A DNA stretch of 5,994 bases, from assembly GCA_900755865.1 (NCBI GenBank), contig CAAEHZ010000261.1, positions 1 through 5,994 of the forward strand, read 5' to 3'. The DNA comes from Lachnospiraceae bacterium. Lineage in GTDB: Bacteria; Bacillota; Clostridia; Lachnospirales; Lachnospiraceae. Positions 1 to 5,994 of the stretch are shown here, piece after piece (within the stretch, counting starts at the first letter, position 1; each line of letters begins with the position of its first letter). The notes under the pieces were generated by a model that worked only from the letters and a program-made list of their open reading frames with translations, did no database searches and had not been told where the DNA came from. The position numbers and the translations under genes were made by a program.

Positions 1-85
1 GGTTTATTGTTTACCTGTTTTTATAATAAATGGAACATACCTTCCGGCTGCCGGGCCCTGACCGCCTTATCAGCATATCCAATTA

Positions 86-361
86 TTAACGTTCCTCCGA
101 TGCATCTGCATTTCCTTTTGTAATAACCATTTTCTTCCTGTACTTTCTGCGGGGTTCTTCTTCCCTGTAATATTTGGGAAGCGTTGCTCTGATTTCCGGG
201 TCAGTAAATTGTTTTTCAATAACACTGCTGCGTACAATATTGACATTTTGAGGCGCATCAATCATAATTCGCAGGTGTTTCCCTGTTCCTCCCAGAAACA
301 CAATCTTAATATCATCTCCCAGCATCAAATACTCTTCTGTACTGACTGTAAGTCTTAACAT
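86..361 (-). CDS. csrA: Divergent CsrA family RNA-binding regulator
   Basis: The 91-residue product aligns without gaps to the CsrA/RsmA fold: MLRLT at the start, GDD at 15-17, LGG at 23-25, LRI at 30-32, DAP at 35-37 and R44. Family members are dimers that bind GGA motifs in mRNA leaders to block translation; in Firmicutes they typically repress flagellin synthesis and are antagonised by FliW. L4 and R44, both RNA-contacting positions, are kept, but the usual R6 and R7 are V and S and G9 is E. After residue 48 there is an unusually long charged tail of about 43 residues with a basic RRKYRKK patch, whereas typical CsrA has 60-75 residues. The start at 361 is chosen over the in-frame ATG at 382 because MLRLT matches the family N terminus and GAGGA lies just upstream. 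No fliW or flagellin gene is visible in the window. It is transcribed away from the recombinase gene. The family call is firm; retained RNA binding is likely but unproven. Confidence 0.85.
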   Translation of the reverse strand: MLRLTVSTEEYLMLGDDIKIVFLGGTGKHLRIMIDAPQNVNIVRSSVIEKQFTDPEIRATLPKYYREEEPRRKYRKKMVITKGNADASEER

Positions 362-404
362 TTCATCCTCATTTCCGCGCATGTTCTTTGCGCACAGCGT
401 CCCT
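362..404 (-). promoter_or_regulatory. csrA leader with GGA motifs, possible autoregulation
   Basis: Reading the minus strand, the csrA ribosome binding site is GAGGAUG immediately before the start codon, so a GGAUG core overlaps the Shine-Dalgarno sequence. A second motif, AGGGA (complement of 400-404), lies about 40 nt upstream. CsrA proteins recognise ANGGA/GGAUG motifs and often repress their own translation in this way. Motifs this short occur by chance, so autoregulation is only inferred. Confidence 0.3.
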
Positions 405-415
405 GCTTTTCATCG

Positions 416-450
416 CAACAATCTATAAACAAATGTTGCATACCCTATTA
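416..450. repeat. Left inverted repeat / putative recombination site (IRL)
   Basis: Positions 424-441 are the exact reverse complement of 2346-2363 (ATGCAACATTTGTTTATA). Extending both ways, 30 of 35 positions match the right copy at 2337-2371. The site has internal dyad symmetry: GCAACA (415-420) and TGTTGC (434-439) flank a 13-nt centre. Paired half-sites around a short spacer are the usual architecture of a tyrosine recombinase core site. The site lies between the divergent csrA and recombinase genes. Confidence 0.8.
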
Positions 451-478
451 TTACTTATCATCACGAAAGGAATTTATT

Positions 479-1057
479 ATGAGCGCGACACAGCCTATCA
501 GAGAACCTGAACTTCTGCAGAAATTTAAAGACTATTACTGTTCCAGTTACCCAAATATACGGAACTACACCCTTTGCGTTATGGGGCTTAATACAGCCCT
601 GAGAATTACGGATATCCTGAACCTGAAATGGGAAAATATTTATAACTTCCGAACCGGAAAATTTTTGATACATCTTACTGTCATAGAAAAAAAGACTCAG
701 AAAACTAATATGATTGCACTCAACGAAGCCCTCCGGGAAATCCTGTCCCTTTACTTTGAAACAACTGCCCCTTCTGCAGAGCAATATCTTTTTGTCAGTA
801 GAAACGGAATTAATCAGCCTTTAAGCCGCAGTCAGGCATTTCGTATTATTAAAAAAGCTGCGGTTTCTGCCGGAATGCTTCAGAATATCAGCTGTCATTC
901 CCTGCGAAAAACCTTTGGATATCATGCCTGGCAGCAGGGAGTTCCGCCTGTTCTTTTAATGGAAATTTATAATCATTCCTCTTATCAGATAACCAAAAGA
1001 TATCTTGGCATTGAACAGGATGATAAAGACAAGGTATTCTTAAATATGAATCTGTAA
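479..1057 (+). CDS. Catalytic-domain-only tyrosine recombinase (FimB/RecV-like invertase)
   Basis: The 192-residue protein carries the full tyrosine recombinase active site: R42 in the ALRITDIL motif, K72 in the beta-hairpin EKKTQK, H140 and R143 in HSLRKTF, H166 in NHSS, and nucleophile Y175 in KRYLG. It lacks the N-terminal SAM-like core-binding domain of XerC/D and phage integrases, and its length matches stand-alone invertases such as FimB, FimE and RecV (about 200 residues). Members cut and rejoin DNA through a 3'-phosphotyrosine link. The start is set by AAAGGA at 466-471, seven bases upstream. The gene lies 29 bp inside the left inverted repeat, reading inward, so those repeats are its probable substrate. 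No convincing sigma-A promoter was found in the short gap before it. No frameshift or missing catalytic residue is seen, so it should be active. Family assignment is secure, specific role inferred. Confidence 0.92.
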   Translation: MSATQPIREPELLQKFKDYYCSSYPNIRNYTLCVMGLNTALRITDILNLKWENIYNFRTGKFLIHLTVIEKKTQKTNMIALNEALREILSLYFETTAPSAEQYLFVSRNGINQPLSRSQAFRIIKKAAVSAGMLQNISCHSLRKTFGYHAWQQGVPPVLLMEIYNHSSYQITKRYLGIEQDDKDKVFLNMNL

Positions 1058-1071
1058 ATATCATTCCGGGC

Positions 1072-1099
1072 TAAATATTCTGCAGTGTCCTGCCGATAT
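1072..1099 (+). promoter_or_regulatory. Sigma-28/sigma-D flagellar-type promoter
   Basis: GCCGATAT at 1092-1099 is a perfect match to the Bacillus sigma-D -10 element, and TAAA at 1072-1075 matches the -35 element. The spacer is 16 nt against the usual 15. Transcription would start near 1106, pointing rightward at the terminator at 1137-1180 and the unknown gene at 1296. It lies wholly in intergenic DNA after the recombinase stop codon. One base of extra spacing is the only weakness. Confidence 0.55.
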
Positions 1100-1105
1100 C
1101 TTATA

Positions 1106-1180
1106 TAGCTGTATTTCAGGGATGATAAGCAAGGCTACGGATGGCTGTTTCTTCTAATTAAGAAGCGTCATCCGTTTTTT
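1106..1180 (+). ncRNA. Candidate ~75-nt RNA with CsrA-type motifs (sRNA or attenuated leader)
   Basis: A transcript from the sigma-28-like promoter would run about 75 nt to a Rho-independent terminator without containing a convincing ORF. It would carry CAGGGAUG (1117-1124), matching the CsrA SELEX core CARGGAUG, just after a small hairpin (CUG-UAUUU-CAG), and UACGGAUG (1136-1143), whose GGAUG forms part of the 5' terminator stem. It could be a small CsrA-titrating RNA, an attenuator controlling the downstream gene, or only the 3' tail of the recombinase transcript. No known RNA family is recognised. Confidence 0.28.
1137..1180 (+). terminator. Rho-independent terminator after the recombinase gene
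   Basis: ACGGATG (1137-1143) pairs with CATCCGT (1169-1175), and an inner TTCTT/AAGAA stem closes on a short loop. A run of six T follows the stem base. It would end recombinase transcripts and also any transcript from the promoter at 1072-1099, and it lies 115 bases before the next start codon. Confidence 0.75.
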
Positions 1181-1203
1181 ATAGGTCATACGCGGAATTT
1201 ATG

Positions 1204-1238
1204 TCTGCACACACCTGACACCATCCGGTATGTGCAGA
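1204..1238 (+). promoter_or_regulatory. Hairpin in the leader of the unknown gene
   Basis: TCTGCACA (1204-1211) pairs with TGTGCAGA (1231-1238), giving an 8-bp stem, and ACC/GGT (1213-1215 and 1227-1229) can add three more pairs after a single mismatch. There is no T run, so it is not a terminator. It ends about 48 nt before the ribosome binding site and may be a leader structure or protein-binding dyad. Function unknown. Confidence 0.3.
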
Positions 1239-1295
1239 AAACCTTTGCGGAATAAAGAGGATATCTGCAAATATGCGCAGAAGCAGGGAGGAATT

Positions 1296-2267
1296 ATGGC
1301 AATCACAGGAATCGAATATCGCTATCTTTATGCAGAAAACAACCAGACAAAAAGACAGATTAGCAGCACAACAAAAAATACCGGCACAGAAGGCACAACC
1401 GCCGCCGAAACCACAACCTCCAAGGGCTTTTCTCTGGACAGACACATTTCCGGGAAGAATAAAGTTCCTTATGGAGAAATGGCTCAGGATGGCGTTATTA
1501 CTTACAATGGCGTAACCTTTGTGTGTGATTATGAAAAAAACAGAATCTGCCTCGGTGATACAAGCAATATGGATAACTGTATTTCTGTCAGTCTTTCCGG
1601 TGGAGGCAGTCTTGTCGTAAACAGAAACAATCTGGACGACCTTTCCAGGGCGATTGGAATGTTTACTCCGGAGGATGTGAATCGCATTTTACGCGCTCTT
1701 GCCCAGGATGCAAAAATACAGAAAATGAAAAAAGAAATTGATGACATGGAAAACGGAGAAGAATCCGAGGAATCCGGGAAAAATACAGCAGAAGTCATAG
1801 AAGATTCCGATACAAAATTTCAAATTGGAAATCAATCCTATACCATAAAGGAATGGAAAACTTTTCTGGAAAGATTTGATTCTGTTCAGAACAGCATCCG
1901 GGAAGCATTAGAAGAAAAAATTAAAAAGGAACAGGAGGAGGCTCTGAAAAAGGAACTGTTAAGCAGACAGGAAAACACTTCCGATGCCGAGTCCCTTGAA
2001 AACATTCTGGCGCAAAGCTTTAAAAGCTACGATTCTTCCGATAAAGAGGAACCGAACTCCACATGGTATCTCACCTGCTATGATGAGAATGGTATCTGGT
2101 GCAGAAAGTATATCGATGGGACTTTTTCTGAAACCCTGTGGAATATAGATTTTACAGACGCTTCCCAGTATGAAACCGTATCCTCCTGTCTGGCAGCCCT
2201 TACCCCGGATGCAGATACGGCATTTACCAGAGATTTTTCCTTCTGGAAGAATCATTTGCAAATGTAA
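1296..2267 (+). CDS. Unrecognised 323-residue protein within the invertible segment
   Basis: No function is recognised. The start at 1296 is chosen because GGGAGGA (1286-1292) precedes it, while the in-frame ATG at 1230 has no ribosome binding site and lies inside a hairpin. There is no signal peptide or membrane segment. Visible regions are: a Thr/Ser/Lys-rich low-complexity N terminus (about 15-45); a compact beta-rich domain (about 65-111; DGVITYNGVTFVCDYE, LGD, SVSLSGGGSLVVNR); a helical part with FTPEDVNRILRAL (123-135); an acidic linker (about 147-172); a charged helix likely to form a coiled coil (about 190-226); and an aromatic-rich C-terminal domain (about 255-323; TWYLTCYDENGIWCRKYIDG). 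The architecture is reminiscent of uncharacterised proteins common in Lachnospiraceae. The sigma-28-like promoter upstream suggests co-expression with late flagellar genes, though a terminator intervenes. It ends 70 bases before the hairpin at the right repeat. It could be switch cargo, a flagellar-associated protein, or a regulator of the recombinase. Confidence 0.85.
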   Translation: MAITGIEYRYLYAENNQTKRQISSTTKNTGTEGTTAAETTTSKGFSLDRHISGKNKVPYGEMAQDGVITYNGVTFVCDYEKNRICLGDTSNMDNCISVSLSGGGSLVVNRNNLDDLSRAIGMFTPEDVNRILRALAQDAKIQKMKKEIDDMENGEESEESGKNTAEVIEDSDTKFQIGNQSYTIKEWKTFLERFDSVQNSIREALEEKIKKEQEEALKKELLSRQENTSDAESLENILAQSFKSYDSSDKEEPNSTWYLTCYDENGIWCRKYIDGTFSETLWNIDFTDASQYETVSSCLAALTPDADTAFTRDFSFWKNHLQM

Positions 2268-2301
2268 AAAGAAGAAAAAGGAAATTTTTTGCTTACAGGG
2301 G

Positions 2302-2328
2302 TTAAGAAAAGAGCGGAGCAGCCGATAA
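2302..2328 (+). promoter_or_regulatory. Sigma-28-type promoter at the right end of the invertible segment
   Basis: GCCGATAA (2321-2328) is an exact match to the FliA/sigma-28 -10 element. TTAAG (2302-2306) matches four of five bases of the -35 TAAAG, with the canonical spacing of 15 after the first four bases. The start point would be near 2335, a few bases before the hairpin at 2338-2382. It reads outward through the right inverted repeat. In the present orientation it faces the acyltransferase operon; after inversion it would face csrA. Confidence 0.55.
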
Positions 2329-2336
2329 TTATTATG

Positions 2337-2371
2337 TAACAGGGAATGCAACATTTGTTTATAATATGTTG
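2337..2371. repeat. Right inverted repeat / putative recombination site (IRR)
   Basis: Positions 2346-2363 exactly match the reverse complement of 424-441. The flanking AGGG (2341-2344) and TGTTG (2367-2371) are also shared with the left site, giving 30 matches in 35 positions. The half-sites GCAACA and TGTTGT flank the same 13-nt centre as in the left copy. The repeat overlaps a terminator-like hairpin. Confidence 0.8.
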
Positions 2372-2387
2372 TATTTCCTGTTTTTTT
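2338..2387 (+). terminator. Strong terminator hairpin containing the right recombination site
   Basis: Positions 2338-2354 pair along all 17 bases (two G-U) with 2366-2382 around an 11-nt loop, and a run of seven T starts at 2381. This is a textbook intrinsic terminator for the unknown gene 70 bases upstream. It also sits at the start of any transcript from the sigma-28-like promoter at 2302-2328 and would block it from reaching the next operon. The inner arm lies mostly inside the invertible segment and the outer arm and T run outside, so inversion would exchange one arm. Confidence 0.75.
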
Positions 2388-2395
2388 CTTCTTCC

Positions 2396-2424
2396 TTGCA
2401 TAACTCGACAGAATACGATAAAAT
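2396..2424 (+). promoter_or_regulatory. Possible sigma-A promoter of the acyltransferase operon
   Basis: TTGCAT (2396-2401) and TAAAAT (2419-2424) are separated by 17 nt. The start point would fall near 2431, almost at the ribosome binding site (GAGAGG, 2433-2438), leaving a very short leader. It lies outside the inverted repeats, so the operon could be expressed in either orientation. Confidence 0.4.
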
Positions 2425-2447
2425 GTGCAGGTGAGAGGTATAAACAT

Positions 2448-3896
2448 ATGTTATTTAATTCTGCATCATTTTTAATATTTTTTCCGGTTGTGTGTCTTTT
2501 GTACTTTATCATCCCCACTCATCGCCTGAAAAATATCTGGTTATTACTTGCCAGCTACTTTTTCTACATGAGCTGGGACGTAAAATACGGAACCCTGCTG
2601 TTTGCAACAACCCTTGTGTCTTATATATGTGCTGTCTGTCTGGAACGTTTCAGAAAATCTCCTGTTTTAGTCATCGGACTCCTGTTTGAATTTGGGGTCT
2701 TATTTGTCTTTAAATATTTCACCTTTTTCACAGACACTTTCCGGCAGTTGTTTTCCCTGAACGTGTCACCTTCCTTTTCGCTGGTGCTGCCTGTTGGCAT
2801 TTCCTTTTATATTTTCCAGAATACCAGCTATCTGATTGATGTATATCGCGGGGATACTCCCGTAGAACATAATTTTCTGGATTATGCCCTGTATATTTCC
2901 TTCTTCCCACAGCTTGTGGCGGGACCGATTGAGCGTTCCAGTTACTTTTTAAAGCAATTTAAGGAAACCTATCCCTTTGATTACAACCGCGTGAAAAAAG
3001 GACTTCTGATTATGCTCTGGGGCTACTTTTTAAAGCTTGTGATTGCTGACAGAGCCGCTCTGCTGGTGGACAATGTATACAGCAGCCTTTCCACAGCCTC
3101 CGGTTCCTTCCTTTTTGCAGCGGCAATTCTTTTTGCTCTCCAGATATACTGCGACTTTGCCGGTTATTCCACAATCGCCCTTGGAGCTGGTATGGTACTC
3201 GGCTTCCGGATGACGGATAACTTTCAAGCCCCCTATTTTTCCAGAAGCATTTCCGAGTTTTGGCGCAGATGGCATGTTTCTCTTTATGAATGGTTTAAAA
3301 ATTATCTTTATATTCCCCTGGGCGGAAGCCGTAAGGGAATCTTCCACAAATACTGCAACCTGCTGATTGTCTGTACTGTCAGCGGTTTGTGGCACGGTGC
3401 GAACTGGACTTATGTAATCTGGGGACTTATTAATGGCATTTATCAGCTTATGGGGGCAGCAACCCTTTCCCTGCGAAACCGCATCAGACAATCCTTTCTC
3501 CTGCGGAAACTTCCAGAAGGTATTTCCCATCTCTGGCAAAGCCTCTGGGTATACCTGCTGTTCGCTTTTTCCCTCATATTTTTCCGGGCAGAAAGCATTT
3601 CCAGCGCACTCGGCATTATAAAAACAATTTTTACCGCCTTTGACTTTTCCGATTTTGCAGACGGCAGTCTTCTGGCTCTCGGCATTAACGGGAAAAACAT
3701 GGTTGTACTGCTCCTTTCCGTTCTGCTTTTATGGTTTGCAGACAGGCAGAAAGCTCATGGAAAAAGTGTTGTGGATTCTCTTTTGCAAAAGCCCCTTGCC
3801 CTGCAATGGCTGATTTACCTGCCTGCGCTTCTGGGTGTGATTCTCTTTGGCATCTACGGAAAAAATACCGGAAGCTTTATCTACTTTGTATTTTAG
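2448..3896 (+). CDS. MBOAT family membrane O-acyltransferase (AlgI/DltB-like)
   Basis: The 482-residue polytopic membrane protein has about ten or more hydrophobic segments and the MBOAT hallmarks: LPVGISFYIFQ (114-124), QLVAGPIER (155-163), DFAGYSTIALG (236-246), FWRRWHVSLYEWFKNYLYIP (271-290) followed by LGGSR, and GLWHGANW (313-320) with the proposed catalytic His316. Family members move acyl groups, usually acetyl, across the membrane to hand them to an extracytoplasmic partner that esterifies a surface polymer such as alginate, peptidoglycan or teichoic acid. The start at 2448 matches the conserved AlgI-type N terminus (MLFNS) and has GAGAGG upstream; an in-frame ATG at 2346 lies in the recombination site and is not preferred. 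The following gene begins 12 bases after the stop, indicating an operon. No dltA or dltC is present, so D-alanylation is less likely than O-acetylation. The actual substrate cannot be told from sequence. Confidence 0.93.
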   Translation: MLFNSASFLIFFPVVCLLYFIIPTHRLKNIWLLLASYFFYMSWDVKYGTLLFATTLVSYICAVCLERFRKSPVLVIGLLFEFGVLFVFKYFTFFTDTFRQLFSLNVSPSFSLVLPVGISFYIFQNTSYLIDVYRGDTPVEHNFLDYALYISFFPQLVAGPIERSSYFLKQFKETYPFDYNRVKKGLLIMLWGYFLKLVIADRAALLVDNVYSSLSTASGSFLFAAAILFALQIYCDFAGYSTIALGAGMVLGFRMTDNFQAPYFSRSISEFWRRWHVSLYEWFKNYLYIPLGGSRKGIFHKYCNLLIVCTVSGLWHGANWTYVIWGLINGIYQLMGAATLSLRNRIRQSFLLRKLPEGISHLWQSLWVYLLFAFSLIFFRAESISSALGIIKTIFTAFDFSDFADGSLLALGINGKNMVVLLLSVLLLWFADRQKAHGKSVVDSLLQKPLALQWLIYLPALLGVILFGIYGKNTGSFIYFVF

Positions 3897-3908
3897 AAAG
3901 GACGAAAC

Positions 3909-4916
3909 ATGCGTAAAAATATTTTGCATTTTACTGCTTTCCTGCTTTTATTTCTGGTGGGACTGTTTCTTGTGTCACGCCTGAATCTGCTTTATCTGCG
4001 GGACCCGAATAATCATGAGTTTAATCACGAATATTTTTATGAGCTGCCGGAAAACAGTGTGGATGTCCTGATTGTAGGCTCCAGCCACAGCTACTGCTCC
4101 TTTATTCCCGCTTTATTATATGAAGAATACGGAATTTCCGGCTATAATCTGGCTACCTCCAACCAGTCCATGCTTGCCTGCTATCTCTGGGCAAAGGAAG
4201 CTTACGAAACCCAGAAATACAAGGTTCTTGTAGTAGAAGCCATGAGCGTTTCCAATTCCCACGGGGATATCGAAAACGACATCCGCTCTTTAAACAGTAT
4301 GGAGCTTTCCCCCCATTACTTTGAACTGATGAAAACCTACAAGCGCCAGAGTTTAAAGGTACTGTTCCCGGTTATCAGCTTCCACCAGTCCTGGGACAGC
4401 ATTACCCCTGCCAGCTTCCGCAAAACGGTTTATGAGGACGGGGATGCCATGCGGGGATATGTTCCCCTGTTCAGCACTGCCGGTGTGGAAAACACAACAC
4501 AGATTGTGGATGAAACAGACTCCACAGTCGGGTATCTGAAATACCCTTATGTGGATAAGCTGAGAGAATTTTGTGATGAAAACGGCATCCGGCTTCTTTT
4601 TATCAAGGCGCCCCTTGCCAATGTCGAAGTAAATCGCTGGGATACCGGAATGCATAATAATCTGGTGCAGTATACCTCCCAGTACAATATTCCCTTCTGG
4701 GATTTCAATGCTGCCTCCGATGCCCAGCTTGCCGGAATACAGGCATCTGAGGACGTAGCCGCAGACGGACGACACTGTAATTATTCCGGTGCAGTAAAGA
4801 TTACAAGATTTCTGGGGAAATTTTTAAAGGAAGAATGGCAGATTTCTTCTGCCCCGGGCAGCTTTTCCGAAGAAGCGCTTGCCTCCTATCACAGGATTAT
4901 AGATGCTCAGAAGTAA
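3909..4916 (+). CDS. Membrane-anchored SGNH/DltD-like partner of the acyltransferase
   Basis: The 335-residue protein has an N-terminal membrane anchor (about 7-25) with no obvious cleavage site, followed by an extracytoplasmic domain. VLIVGSSHS (53-61) corresponds to the GDS-type nucleophile block of SGNH hydrolases, with Ser59 the likely nucleophile by alignment. DGRHCN (286-291) supplies the D-x-x-H dyad, D286 and H289, and N84 in ATSNQS may be the block III Asn. AlgJ/AlgX, PatB and DltD play this part beside MBOAT proteins, completing acyl transfer onto a surface polymer. AAAGGA (3897-3902) precedes the start by six bases, and the 12-bp gap to the MBOAT gene implies co-transcription. Similar proteins are often labelled DltD-like or simply hypothetical. 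The pairing with MBOAT makes transfer more likely than hydrolysis; the acceptor is unknown. Confidence 0.82.
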   Translation: MRKNILHFTAFLLLFLVGLFLVSRLNLLYLRDPNNHEFNHEYFYELPENSVDVLIVGSSHSYCSFIPALLYEEYGISGYNLATSNQSMLACYLWAKEAYETQKYKVLVVEAMSVSNSHGDIENDIRSLNSMELSPHYFELMKTYKRQSLKVLFPVISFHQSWDSITPASFRKTVYEDGDAMRGYVPLFSTAGVENTTQIVDETDSTVGYLKYPYVDKLREFCDENGIRLLFIKAPLANVEVNRWDTGMHNNLVQYTSQYNIPFWDFNAASDAQLAGIQASEDVAADGRHCNYSGAVKITRFLGKFLKEEWQISSAPGSFSEEALASYHRIIDAQK

Positions 4917-4937
4917 AAATATACTGCGATAAAAGCA

Positions 4938-4984
4938 AAAGACCTCACAGAGCAGCTTCCCGCTCTGCAAGGTCTTTGTTTTCC
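4938..4984 (+). terminator. Terminator between the convergent operon and aldolase gene
   Basis: AAAGACCT (4938-4945) pairs with AGGTCTTT (4970-4977). After a 2x2 internal loop, CAGAGC (4948-4953) pairs with GCTCTG (4962-4967) around an 8-nt loop. The plus strand ends in a T-rich tract. On the minus strand the stem is followed by TTTTGCTTTT, so it can serve both convergent genes. Confidence 0.9.
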
Positions 4985-5000
4985 CGTTATTTTATCTTCT

Positions 5001-5864
5001 TTATGCCTTTCCAACAGAACCGAAAAGCTCCATCTTTTCCTTTACAGTTGCCTTAATTGCTTCTGCACCGGGTGCCAGAAGTTTACGGGGGTCAAAGCCC
5101 TTACCTTCCAAATCCTTGCCTTCCTCAATATACTTACGGGTTGCTGCCGCAAAGGAAAGCTGGCACTCTGTATTTACATTAATCTTTGCCACTCCAAGGC
5201 TGATTGCCTTCTTAATCATATCTGCGGGGATTCCGGTACCACCATGCAATACCAGCGGAAGTTCACCGGTAAGCTGCTGGATGGCATCCAGTGTTTCAAA
5301 GCTCAGACCCTTCCAGTTTGCGGGATACTTTCCGTGAATATTGCCGATGCCTGCTGCCAGGAAATCTACTCCCAAATCAGCTACAGCCTTACATTCCTTC
5401 GGGTCTGCACATTCACCCATACCGATAACGCCGTCCTCTTCGCCGCCAATGGAACCAACCTCTGCCTCGATGGAAAGCCCCTTTGCATGCGCTGCATGAA
5501 CCAGCTCTGTAGTCTTTGCCACATTCTCATCAATCGGATAGTGGGAACCATCGAACATAATAGAAGAAAAACCTGCTTCAATACATTTATAGCAGCCTTC
5601 AAAAGTACCATGGTCAAGATGTAATGCTACCGGTACATCAATATCCAAATCCTTCAGCAGACCATTTACCATACCAACAACTGCATGGTAGCCGCCCATG
5701 TACTTTCCGGCTCCTTCTGATACACCAAGAATAACCGGAGATTTGCACTCCTTTGCAGTCAGCAGAATAGACTTTGTCCATTCCAGATTGTTGATGTTAA
5801 ACTGACCTACTGCATAATGACCCGCTTTTGCCTTTTTCAGCATTTCTGTTGCAGAAACTAACAT
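5001..5864 (-). CDS. fba: Class II fructose-1,6-bisphosphate aldolase
   Basis: The 287-residue cytoplasmic enzyme reversibly cleaves fructose-1,6-bisphosphate to glyceraldehyde-3-phosphate and dihydroxyacetone phosphate in glycolysis and gluconeogenesis, using a divalent metal, typically zinc. The class II signature is clear: LHLDHG (81-86) with catalytic Asp84 and metal ligand His85, EAEVG (133-137), GNIHGKY (174-180) with metal ligand His177, LHGGTG (206-211) with His207 as a further metal ligand, and the phosphate-binding stretch INVNTE (228-233). Length is close to Bacillus FbaA (about 285 residues) and shorter than E. coli FbaA, which fits class IIB. The related tagatose-bisphosphate aldolase (GatY/KbaY) shares these motifs, but no tagatose or galactitol genes are adjacent. 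GGAGGT lies eight bases before the start at 5864. The gene appears monocistronic, with a strong promoter upstream and a terminator downstream, as expected for a housekeeping enzyme. Confidence 0.95.
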   Translation of the reverse strand: MLVSATEMLKKAKAGHYAVGQFNINNLEWTKSILLTAKECKSPVILGVSEGAGKYMGGYHAVVGMVNGLLKDLDIDVPVALHLDHGTFEGCYKCIEAGFSSIMFDGSHYPIDENVAKTTELVHAAHAKGLSIEAEVGSIGGEEDGVIGMGECADPKECKAVADLGVDFLAAGIGNIHGKYPANWKGLSFETLDAIQQLTGELPLVLHGGTGIPADMIKKAISLGVAKINVNTECQLSFAAATRKYIEEGKDLEGKGFDPRKLLAPGAEAIKATVKEKMELFGSVGKA

Positions 5865-5905
5865 TTCACTCTACCTCCGTTTTCCAGTTTGATACCTTTT
5901 TGCTT

Positions 5906-5934
5906 AGTTTACCATATTGTCAATTTTTTGTCAA
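5906..5934 (-). promoter_or_regulatory. Strong sigma-A promoter of the aldolase gene
   Basis: On the minus strand a perfect TTGACA (complement of 5929-5934) is separated by exactly 17 nt from TAAACT (complement of 5906-5911), which is preceded by an extended -10 TGG. A second TTGACA (complement of 5918-5923) lies inside the spacer and is too close to serve the same -10. The start point would be near 5899, giving a leader of about 35 nt. Confidence 0.8.
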
Positions 5935-5994
5935 AGAGTATTATTTACCATGATTTCGATTGCCTGATGCAGATTTCTGATTTCTACCCTTTCA
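5931..5994 (-). CDS. Possible C-terminal fragment of an upstream minus-strand gene
   Basis: Reading the minus strand from the window edge, one frame is open for 20 codons and ends ...IEIMVNNTL followed by TGA at 5931-5933. The peptide has an ordinary amphipathic composition and its stop codon touches the -35 box of the aldolase promoter. Twenty open codons prove little, and no family is recognisable from so short a tail. Confidence 0.3.
   Translation of the reverse strand, partial: ERVEIRNLHQAIEIMVNNTL

Follow-up and report, generated by a model that had tools for sequence, protein, structure and literature searches.

What does a recombinase control when its gene lies, together with one further gene, inside the DNA segment that it is predicted to invert? 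This question is raised by contig CAAEHZ010000261.1 of a Lachnospiraceae bacterium (assembly GCA_900755865.1), positions 1 to 5,994 of which were analysed (hereafter, the window). An inverted repeat in the window brackets the gene of a small tyrosine recombinase and a second open reading frame (ORF), both of them between the arms, as a preliminary description of the sequence had noted; a csrA paralogue lies just outside the left arm and is oriented away from it. We conclude that the window very probably represents the OFF state of a flagellin phase-variation switch, in which the recombinase gene and an outward-facing promoter motif of the sigma-D/FliA type are predicted to invert together between two 27-bp sites. 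What is switched is likely this flagellar-type promoter motif, together with the csrA-flagellin operon next to the segment.

The 18-bp perfect inverted repeat reported earlier is present (Table 1), and when extended to 35 nt (416–450 and 2337–2371) its arms pair at 30 of 35 positions (86% complementary). Each arm contains a 27-bp dyad with half-sites TGCAACA and TGTTGCA placed 13 bp apart, with one mismatch per site. The preliminary description was right to see internal dyad half-sites in each arm, but the 13-nt centres, which it took to be identical, agree at 10 of 13 positions; all three mismatches fall at positions 1–3, on the outer side, and the central seven letters (TATAAAC) are the same in both sites. 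An inverted repeat of at least 18 bp was seen in 1 of 300 dinucleotide-preserving shuffles of the window, and therefore repeat length alone is worth about 0.3%, not the "well under once in a thousand" suggested before. The decisive evidence for an invertible segment is comparative.

To collect relatives of this module, we scanned contigs with 21 aligned recombinases, which yielded 79 loci from the best 80 of 569 confirmed candidates; of the relatives with a named source, the best belong to the Lachnospiraceae. Cultured hosts in the set include Roseburia faecis M72 (L039), Lachnospiraceae bacterium GAM79 (L031), and Velocimicrobium porci (L049). Further searches added modules, to which 30 genomes contributed at E ≤ 1e-40 out of 397 from the family, and after removal of duplicates the set comprised 127 distinct modules. 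Viral contigs carried only distant relatives, the best at 46% identity. Sites and promoters were counted in the 96 of 127 modules with a site-pair score of at least 33, and orientation was labelled in the 100 of 127 scoring at least 31. Among the 79 modules whose spacers are 13 bp long, positions 4–10 of the core agree at 99–100% within a pair and at 30–66% between loci, the agreement within pairs being somewhat favoured because the score by which pairs were picked includes the core match. Paired cores that are identical within loci and variable between them are expected if the binding sequence of the recombinase is fixed and the crossover region is free to vary as long as its two copies match. 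Across the relatives, agreement is generally weakest towards the flank, at positions 1 and 3, and the mismatches of the window at positions 1–3 fit this pattern. Two loci have a different layout: in L014 (737–1186) and L020 (7511–7727), the site pair lies beside the recombinase gene and not around it, delimiting a small promoter-only segment; by eye, both show a TTAA-N16-TCGATA box about 45 bp before a site, which our box pattern missed.

The window recombinase matches the Phage_integrase family PF00589 with 90 bits (cut-off 27.1). Residues R42, K72, H140, R143, H166, and Y175, which we take to be catalytic, are invariant in an alignment of 21 recombinases. No further Pfam family matched at E 0.001, and the protein did not qualify as a serine recombinase (resolvase). 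Its scores against the NCBIfam DNA-invertase models NF007370 and NF007371, which presumably cover FimB/FimE-type proteins, are 40.6 and 45.5 bits, below the required 221 and 222.

Near the right end of the segment, an outward-pointing TTAA-N16-CCGATAA box begins 45 bp ahead of the right site; transcription from it is predicted to start about 10–15 bp before that site. The sigma-D/FliA-type consensus given for Butyrivibrio is TAAA N16-17 MCGATAa (available text of PMC3720852). A relaxed sigma-D box occurs 40–56 bp before the right site, mostly at 45–48 bp, in 65 of the 96 modules and at the left end in 3 of 96, against a background of 0.001 per 17-bp window. With a promoter matrix trained on those 65 modules and scored on the same 96, 86 of 96 pass at a 1% threshold set by letter shuffles. 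One clade, to which several of the failing modules belong, carries the box at the opposite, left end of the segment.

The two sites differ in their surroundings. The right site of the window is contained in a terminator-like hairpin (−21.6 kcal/mol, z −6.74; none of 200 shuffles equally stable) followed by a T-run, and the csrA side of the left site has no extension of the stem and one T in 14 letters. Across modules, with the inner arm matched to the promoter end, T's are more numerous on the non-csrA side in 86 of 88 modules, and the folding energy is lower there in 86 of 88, the remaining two being ties; the stem is longer on the non-csrA side in 79, with two modules reversed and seven ties. 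These 88 come from 90 modules, two having been dropped for short flanks; an initial comparison with fixed inner arms had covered 87 modules.

The direction of the promoter could be scored in 90 csrA modules. It points away from csrA in 87, as in the window, which is thus in the OFF orientation, and towards csrA in three (L016, L026, and L176). On a quick recombinase tree built without branch support, the fewest changes of orientation that explain the labels are three, and the promoter end changed once. In genome G408, two modules (L176 and L180) have opposite orientations, and the alignment of the corresponding regions (L208 and L209) switches strand near the sites. The comparison of relatives proposed in the preliminary description has found the opposite orientation both between related loci and between two modules of one genome, and its claim of an invertible segment with its own tyrosine recombinase is, at the level of sequence comparison, well supported by the co-varying paired cores and these opposite orientations. 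Labels based on the position of csrA relative to the recombinase, used at first, gave 10 "ON" modules of 99, eight of them in one nine-member clade; they were replaced by promoter direction because the promoter of that clade sits at the other end.

The csrA gene adjoins the recombinase in 99 of the 127 modules, and in 2 of 127 a flagellin gene without csrA lies on one side. The window CsrA matches PF02599 with E 4.5e-17 and 62.2 bits (cut-off 27), and Arg44, presumably an RNA-contact residue, is invariant in ten switch-linked CsrA proteins, that of the window and nine relatives. It scores below the equivalog models of canonical CsrA, TIGR00202 (29.9 against 70.1 bits) and NF002469 (39.6 against 73 bits). 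A single canonical csrA (85–95 bits) adjoins fliW in 11 of 12 genomes; in G001 neither was found, and that genome is possibly incomplete. Further csrA paralogues (51–66 bits) number one to three in each of 11 of 12 genomes, 17 in total, and 16 of these lie beside a recombinase match. The genome without an extra paralogue is G009, the source of locus L037, and flagellin genes flank its recombinase on both sides. Cassettes of this kind, with flagellin genes on both sides reading away from the recombinase and no csrA found, were seen in L037, L060/L194, and L191, perhaps representing an either/or flagellin toggle.

Genes following csrA encode flagellin almost without exception, 53 of 54 scanned matching Flagellin_N and 53 of 54 Flagellin_C. 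The scan took 54 of 56 genes, with convergent ORFs (L002, the second of L023, L031, and L071) replaced by the next co-directional ORF; L059 and L063 were left out, and tblastn later placed flagellin genes there as well. In relatives, the gene after csrA most often begins 100–300 bp downstream. In the window itself, the flagellin gene is not visible because the sequence stops 85 bp past csrA. However, a conserved leader element found between csrA and flagellin genes matches on the minus strand from 90 to 21, which implies a flagellin gene just past the left edge. The model behind this match was built from 18 of the 24 GGGCCCG-bearing sequences among 29 found, and owing to short calibration its E-value is rough. 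The element follows the pattern GGTAATAACCGG...AGGGCCCG...CCGGTTACTATAA and was also seen in L031 and L004. It had no Rfam match at the gathering score in nine sources searched, where the single match was a ribosomal-protein leader in L045; an attenuator or an RNA regulator is possible.

It is likely, judging from leader motifs, that CsrA controls flagellin translation. A hairpin with GGA in its loop lies within 110 nt before the start of 79 of 90 csrA-linked flagellin genes (mean of letter shuffles 9.05) and of 11 of 11 other flagellin genes (mean 1.95). The csrA leaders have GGA ahead of the ribosome-binding site in 74 of 89 cases. In the window, such a hairpin in the csrA leader is a possible site of CsrA autoregulation, and this leader, folded as a whole (440 to 361), does not clearly exceed its shuffles in stability (z −1.05).

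What happens in the cell is inferred from these sequence features: that the segment inverts, that sigma-D drives transcription, that transcripts terminate in the OFF state, that csrA and flagellin are expressed in the ON state, and that CsrA acts on flagellin mRNA. The proposed cycle would run as follows. In OFF, the hairpin on the right would stop transcripts started by sigma-D. Exchange within the 7-bp core, carried out by the recombinase, would turn the segment around. In ON, the promoter would read through the left site, which lacks both the T-run and the stem extension, into csrA and a flagellin gene just beyond the window. Less firmly, the CsrA paralogue may bind the GGA-loop hairpins in flagellin leaders, and the outcome might be that other flagellins are silenced, as by FljA in Salmonella, or that the flagellin of the module itself is limited.

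Several observations weigh against the switch as proposed. The outward box of the window reads TTAA and not TAAA, its flagellin gene lies outside the window, and its 1.3-kb insert with a sigma-D-type box and hairpin of its own could alter regulation. Among relatives, 31 of 127 modules score below the site-pair threshold of 33; 26 of 127 have neither csrA nor a one-sided flagellin gene, a group that takes in contig ends, modules flanked by flagellin genes left and right, and possibly other uses; L148 and L161 are csrA modules with paired sites and no box at either end; and the recombinase of L170 has an in-frame stop. All evidence for inversion comes from comparisons between species or between paralogous modules, and the strong bias of 87 to 3 may mean rare switching, or the locking of many modules. 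Finally, GGA hairpins precede linked and other flagellin genes alike, which does not single out a target.

Part of this could be read as the mark of a selfish or relic element, whose sites are maintained without a regulatory role, or of locked modules whose repeats are kept as terminators. The single promoter direction in 87 of 90 scorable modules, the in-frame stop in L170, and the good terminator-like hairpin that the right site itself makes agree with it. Against it, 7-bp cores remain identical within pairs and different between loci, and catalytic residues are invariant in 21 aligned recombinases; the promoter direction changed at least three times on the tree, and the arrangement of promoter, terminator, and target is kept in 86 of 88 modules. 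We consider this explanation very unlikely. We give even less credence to a self-inverting cassette with the second ORF, the cargo gene, as the switched gene, in which a flip would put the recombinase-cargo unit under an outside promoter and csrA and flagellin would be mere neighbours. The window and a few relatives do carry cargo in the segment, and the cargo gene of the window has its own sigma-D-type box, but 95 of 108 segments (duplicates included) measure 683–924 bp, leaving space for little beyond the recombinase, and where cargo is present, it differs. Neither the conserved outward box (86 of 96 modules) nor the asymmetry between the csrA and non-csrA sides would be explained. We therefore dropped the cargo as the switched gene, and also as a defining part of the flipping segment, the role that it had in the preliminary description.

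If the flagellin switch is accepted, the role of its CsrA can be read in two ways. We see a nearly even chance that the system is a convergent counterpart of Salmonella Hin/fljBA made from unrelated parts and widespread in gut Lachnospiraceae, where a tyrosine recombinase flips a sigma-28 promoter along with the recombinase gene, the recombination site doubles as the OFF terminator, ON yields a new flagellin and a private CsrA silencing the others, and several modules per genome give a combinatorial repertoire. A quite possible alternative, towards which we lean somewhat less, keeps the same switch and makes the linked CsrA a local governor of the dose of its own flagellin, and not an FljA-like silencer. 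The GGA-loop hairpins before 79 of 90 linked flagellin genes (shuffled mean 9.05) agree with such a governor, and GGA ahead of the ribosome-binding site in 74 of 89 csrA leaders is expected of autoregulation; moreover, CsrA of B. subtilis represses hag translation (cited in the available text of PMC3720852). Still, all 11 other flagellin genes share the hairpins, making silencing of others equally possible, and a dedicated paralogue beside canonical csrA suggests a task beyond general flagellin dosage. Separately, within 19 kb, locus L206 of genome G460 combines three modules of csrA, recombinase, and flagellin with seven matches to the flagellin N-terminus, possibly a combinatorial flagellin locus.

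Table 1. Positions of the switch components and other features in the 5,994-nt window.
Feature	Position	Strand	Basis
Left arm, 18-bp perfect inverted repeat	424..441		Repeat search and shuffle test
Right arm, 18-bp perfect inverted repeat	2346..2363		Repeat search and shuffle test
Left recombination site, csrA side	414..440		CGCAACA-N13-TGTTGCA
Right recombination site, terminator side	2347..2373		TGCAACA-N13-TGTTGTA
Small tyrosine recombinase, 192 amino acids, catalytic domain only, open frame	479..1057	+	Pfam PF00589, E 1.9e-25
Outward sigma-D-type box TTAA-N16-CCGATA (predicted flipping promoter)	2302..2327	+	Sequence; spacing as in relatives
Terminator-like hairpin that includes the right site (stem of 17 bp, loop of 11 nt), T-run from 2383	2338..2382	+	Folding
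csrA paralogue, predicted to be switched; alignment places its start at 361, ORF open to 382	86..361	-	Pfam CsrA
Conserved csrA-flagellin intergenic leader element	21..90	-	Model from 18 relatives, 52.7 bits, E 7.2e-9
Hairpin with GGA in its loop, csrA leader; CsrA may autoregulate here	394..406	-	Fold: GCAG-GGACG-CUGU
Cargo gene, 323 amino acids, optional passenger	1296..2267	+	Relatives carry precomputed PF27009
Sigma-D-type box upstream of the cargo gene, TAAA-N17-CCGATA	1072..1098	+	Motif search

The scan of the window proteins gave no Pfam match for the cargo ORF. Its AlphaFold model (mean predicted local distance difference test score 56.5, predicted template modelling score 0.29) is too poor for a fold search. 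Among cargo relatives outside switches, four of five have a sigma-D-type box within 600 bp upstream. Between the box at 1072 and the cargo gene, positions 1138–1180 of the window form a hairpin CGGATG...CATCCG with a T-run, and the N-terminal extensions of P0134 and P0164 resemble a translation of this same leader. The homologues P0124 and P0147 are alike in their N-terminal parts and very different at their C-terminal ends, which suggests tail exchange. Other passengers occupy the segments of L001 (2119–3129 and 8873–9817), L039 (8841–9857), and L076 (8817–9797); tblastn found no match to the window cargo in these long inserts. To the right of the segment, the window carries an MBOAT gene and a 335-amino-acid ORF, both rightward, and then a fructose-bisphosphate aldolase gene on the opposite strand. 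No family is shared across loci by the genes of this other flank: the most frequent one accounts for 5 of 58 scanned, these being 58 of 59 genes, as one L023 row (the flagellin gene of a neighbouring module) was left out. Since these genes vary and the hairpin intervenes, the MBOAT gene was dropped as a candidate target.

No description of such a switch was found in the literature that we searched, outside of which lie most subscription journals and preprints. Neither "tyrosine" nor "Lachnospir" occurs in the main text of PMC11868660, a review of phase variation from 2025. Flagellins of Roseburia and Eubacterium were the subject of a study in 2013 (PMC3720852), whose available text describes several flagellins, csrA, and sigma-28 promoters; in that text, "recombinase" and "phase" are absent and "invert" occurs once. 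Flagellins of gut bacteria have been studied as antigens, with antibody responses to them in Crohn's disease and chronic fatigue syndrome (available text of PMC11285207 and PMC11580831). If the proposed switch exists, one that chooses between flagellins would help to explain why a genome has several flagellin genes, and it predicts mixed populations within one host.

Known systems share individual parts of this design. FimB and FimE of E. coli are small tyrosine invertases whose genes lie outside the invertible promoter segment. The window resembles the fim switch in having a tyrosine invertase of about 200 amino acids and a predicted invertible promoter, and differs in that the recombinase gene lies inside the segment. 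In the FliW-CsrA-Hag circuit of B. subtilis, CsrA acts with a flagellin mRNA leader that has GGA motifs. A CsrA-type protein and GGA motifs in the flagellin leader are found here too, but this csrA is an additional paralogue, part of a flagellin operon that an invertible promoter is predicted to drive, with canonical fliW-csrA located elsewhere. In Clostridioides difficile, the recV gene lies away from the Cdi4 segment. Cdi4/RecV is similar in that a tyrosine recombinase is involved and inversion affects flagella in a relative from the Clostridia, whereas our segment, which borders on one csrA-flagellin operon, contains both a promoter motif and the gene of its recombinase. Cdi4 is a 154-bp segment in the leader of the flgB operon that takes effect once transcription has been initiated and has early flagellar genes as its targets (available text of PMC5386303 and PMC5903667); the latter source gives 314 bp for the E. 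coli fim switch and 966 bp for the Salmonella Hin segment. For C. difficile cwpV, an intrinsic terminator involving the repeat has been proposed for the OFF state (available text of PMC2784873). The terminator logic, with a recombination repeat taking part, is thus alike in so far as it is described there, but the cwpV promoter lies outside and the terminator forms in one orientation of the segment, whereas the switch proposed here would flip the promoter and leave the terminator with one flank.

The closest parallel is Salmonella fljBA, an operon of a flagellin and the post-transcriptional regulator FljA, which silences the other flagellin, under control of Hin, a serine recombinase whose gene lies inside the inverting segment between hix sites, with a Fis-bound enhancer. 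The window, like the Hin segment, has the recombinase gene between the two sites and an outward promoter of the flagellar class at the edge of the segment, here a motif. It may also share a target operon of a flagellin and a regulator: csrA is in the window, flagellin follows csrA in 53 of 54 relatives scanned, and the regulation is predicted. It differs in the tyrosine recombinase with 27-bp dyad sites, in CsrA taking the place of FljA, and in the OFF side, where a terminator-like hairpin is built with the recombination site. The preliminary description contrasted the segment with the classical small invertible promoters for carrying its recombinase and a cargo gene; the recombinase does lie inside, but the element looks like an invertible promoter, and since Hin is arranged likewise, this position is not new in itself. 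The switch would work like Hin/fljBA without being a member of that system, because its recombinase is of another class. If this is correct, it is of simple design, with a recombination site that is also a terminator, it places a CsrA-type regulator under phase variation, and it answers for a second time, with a construction of independent origin, the problem that Hin/fljBA solves.

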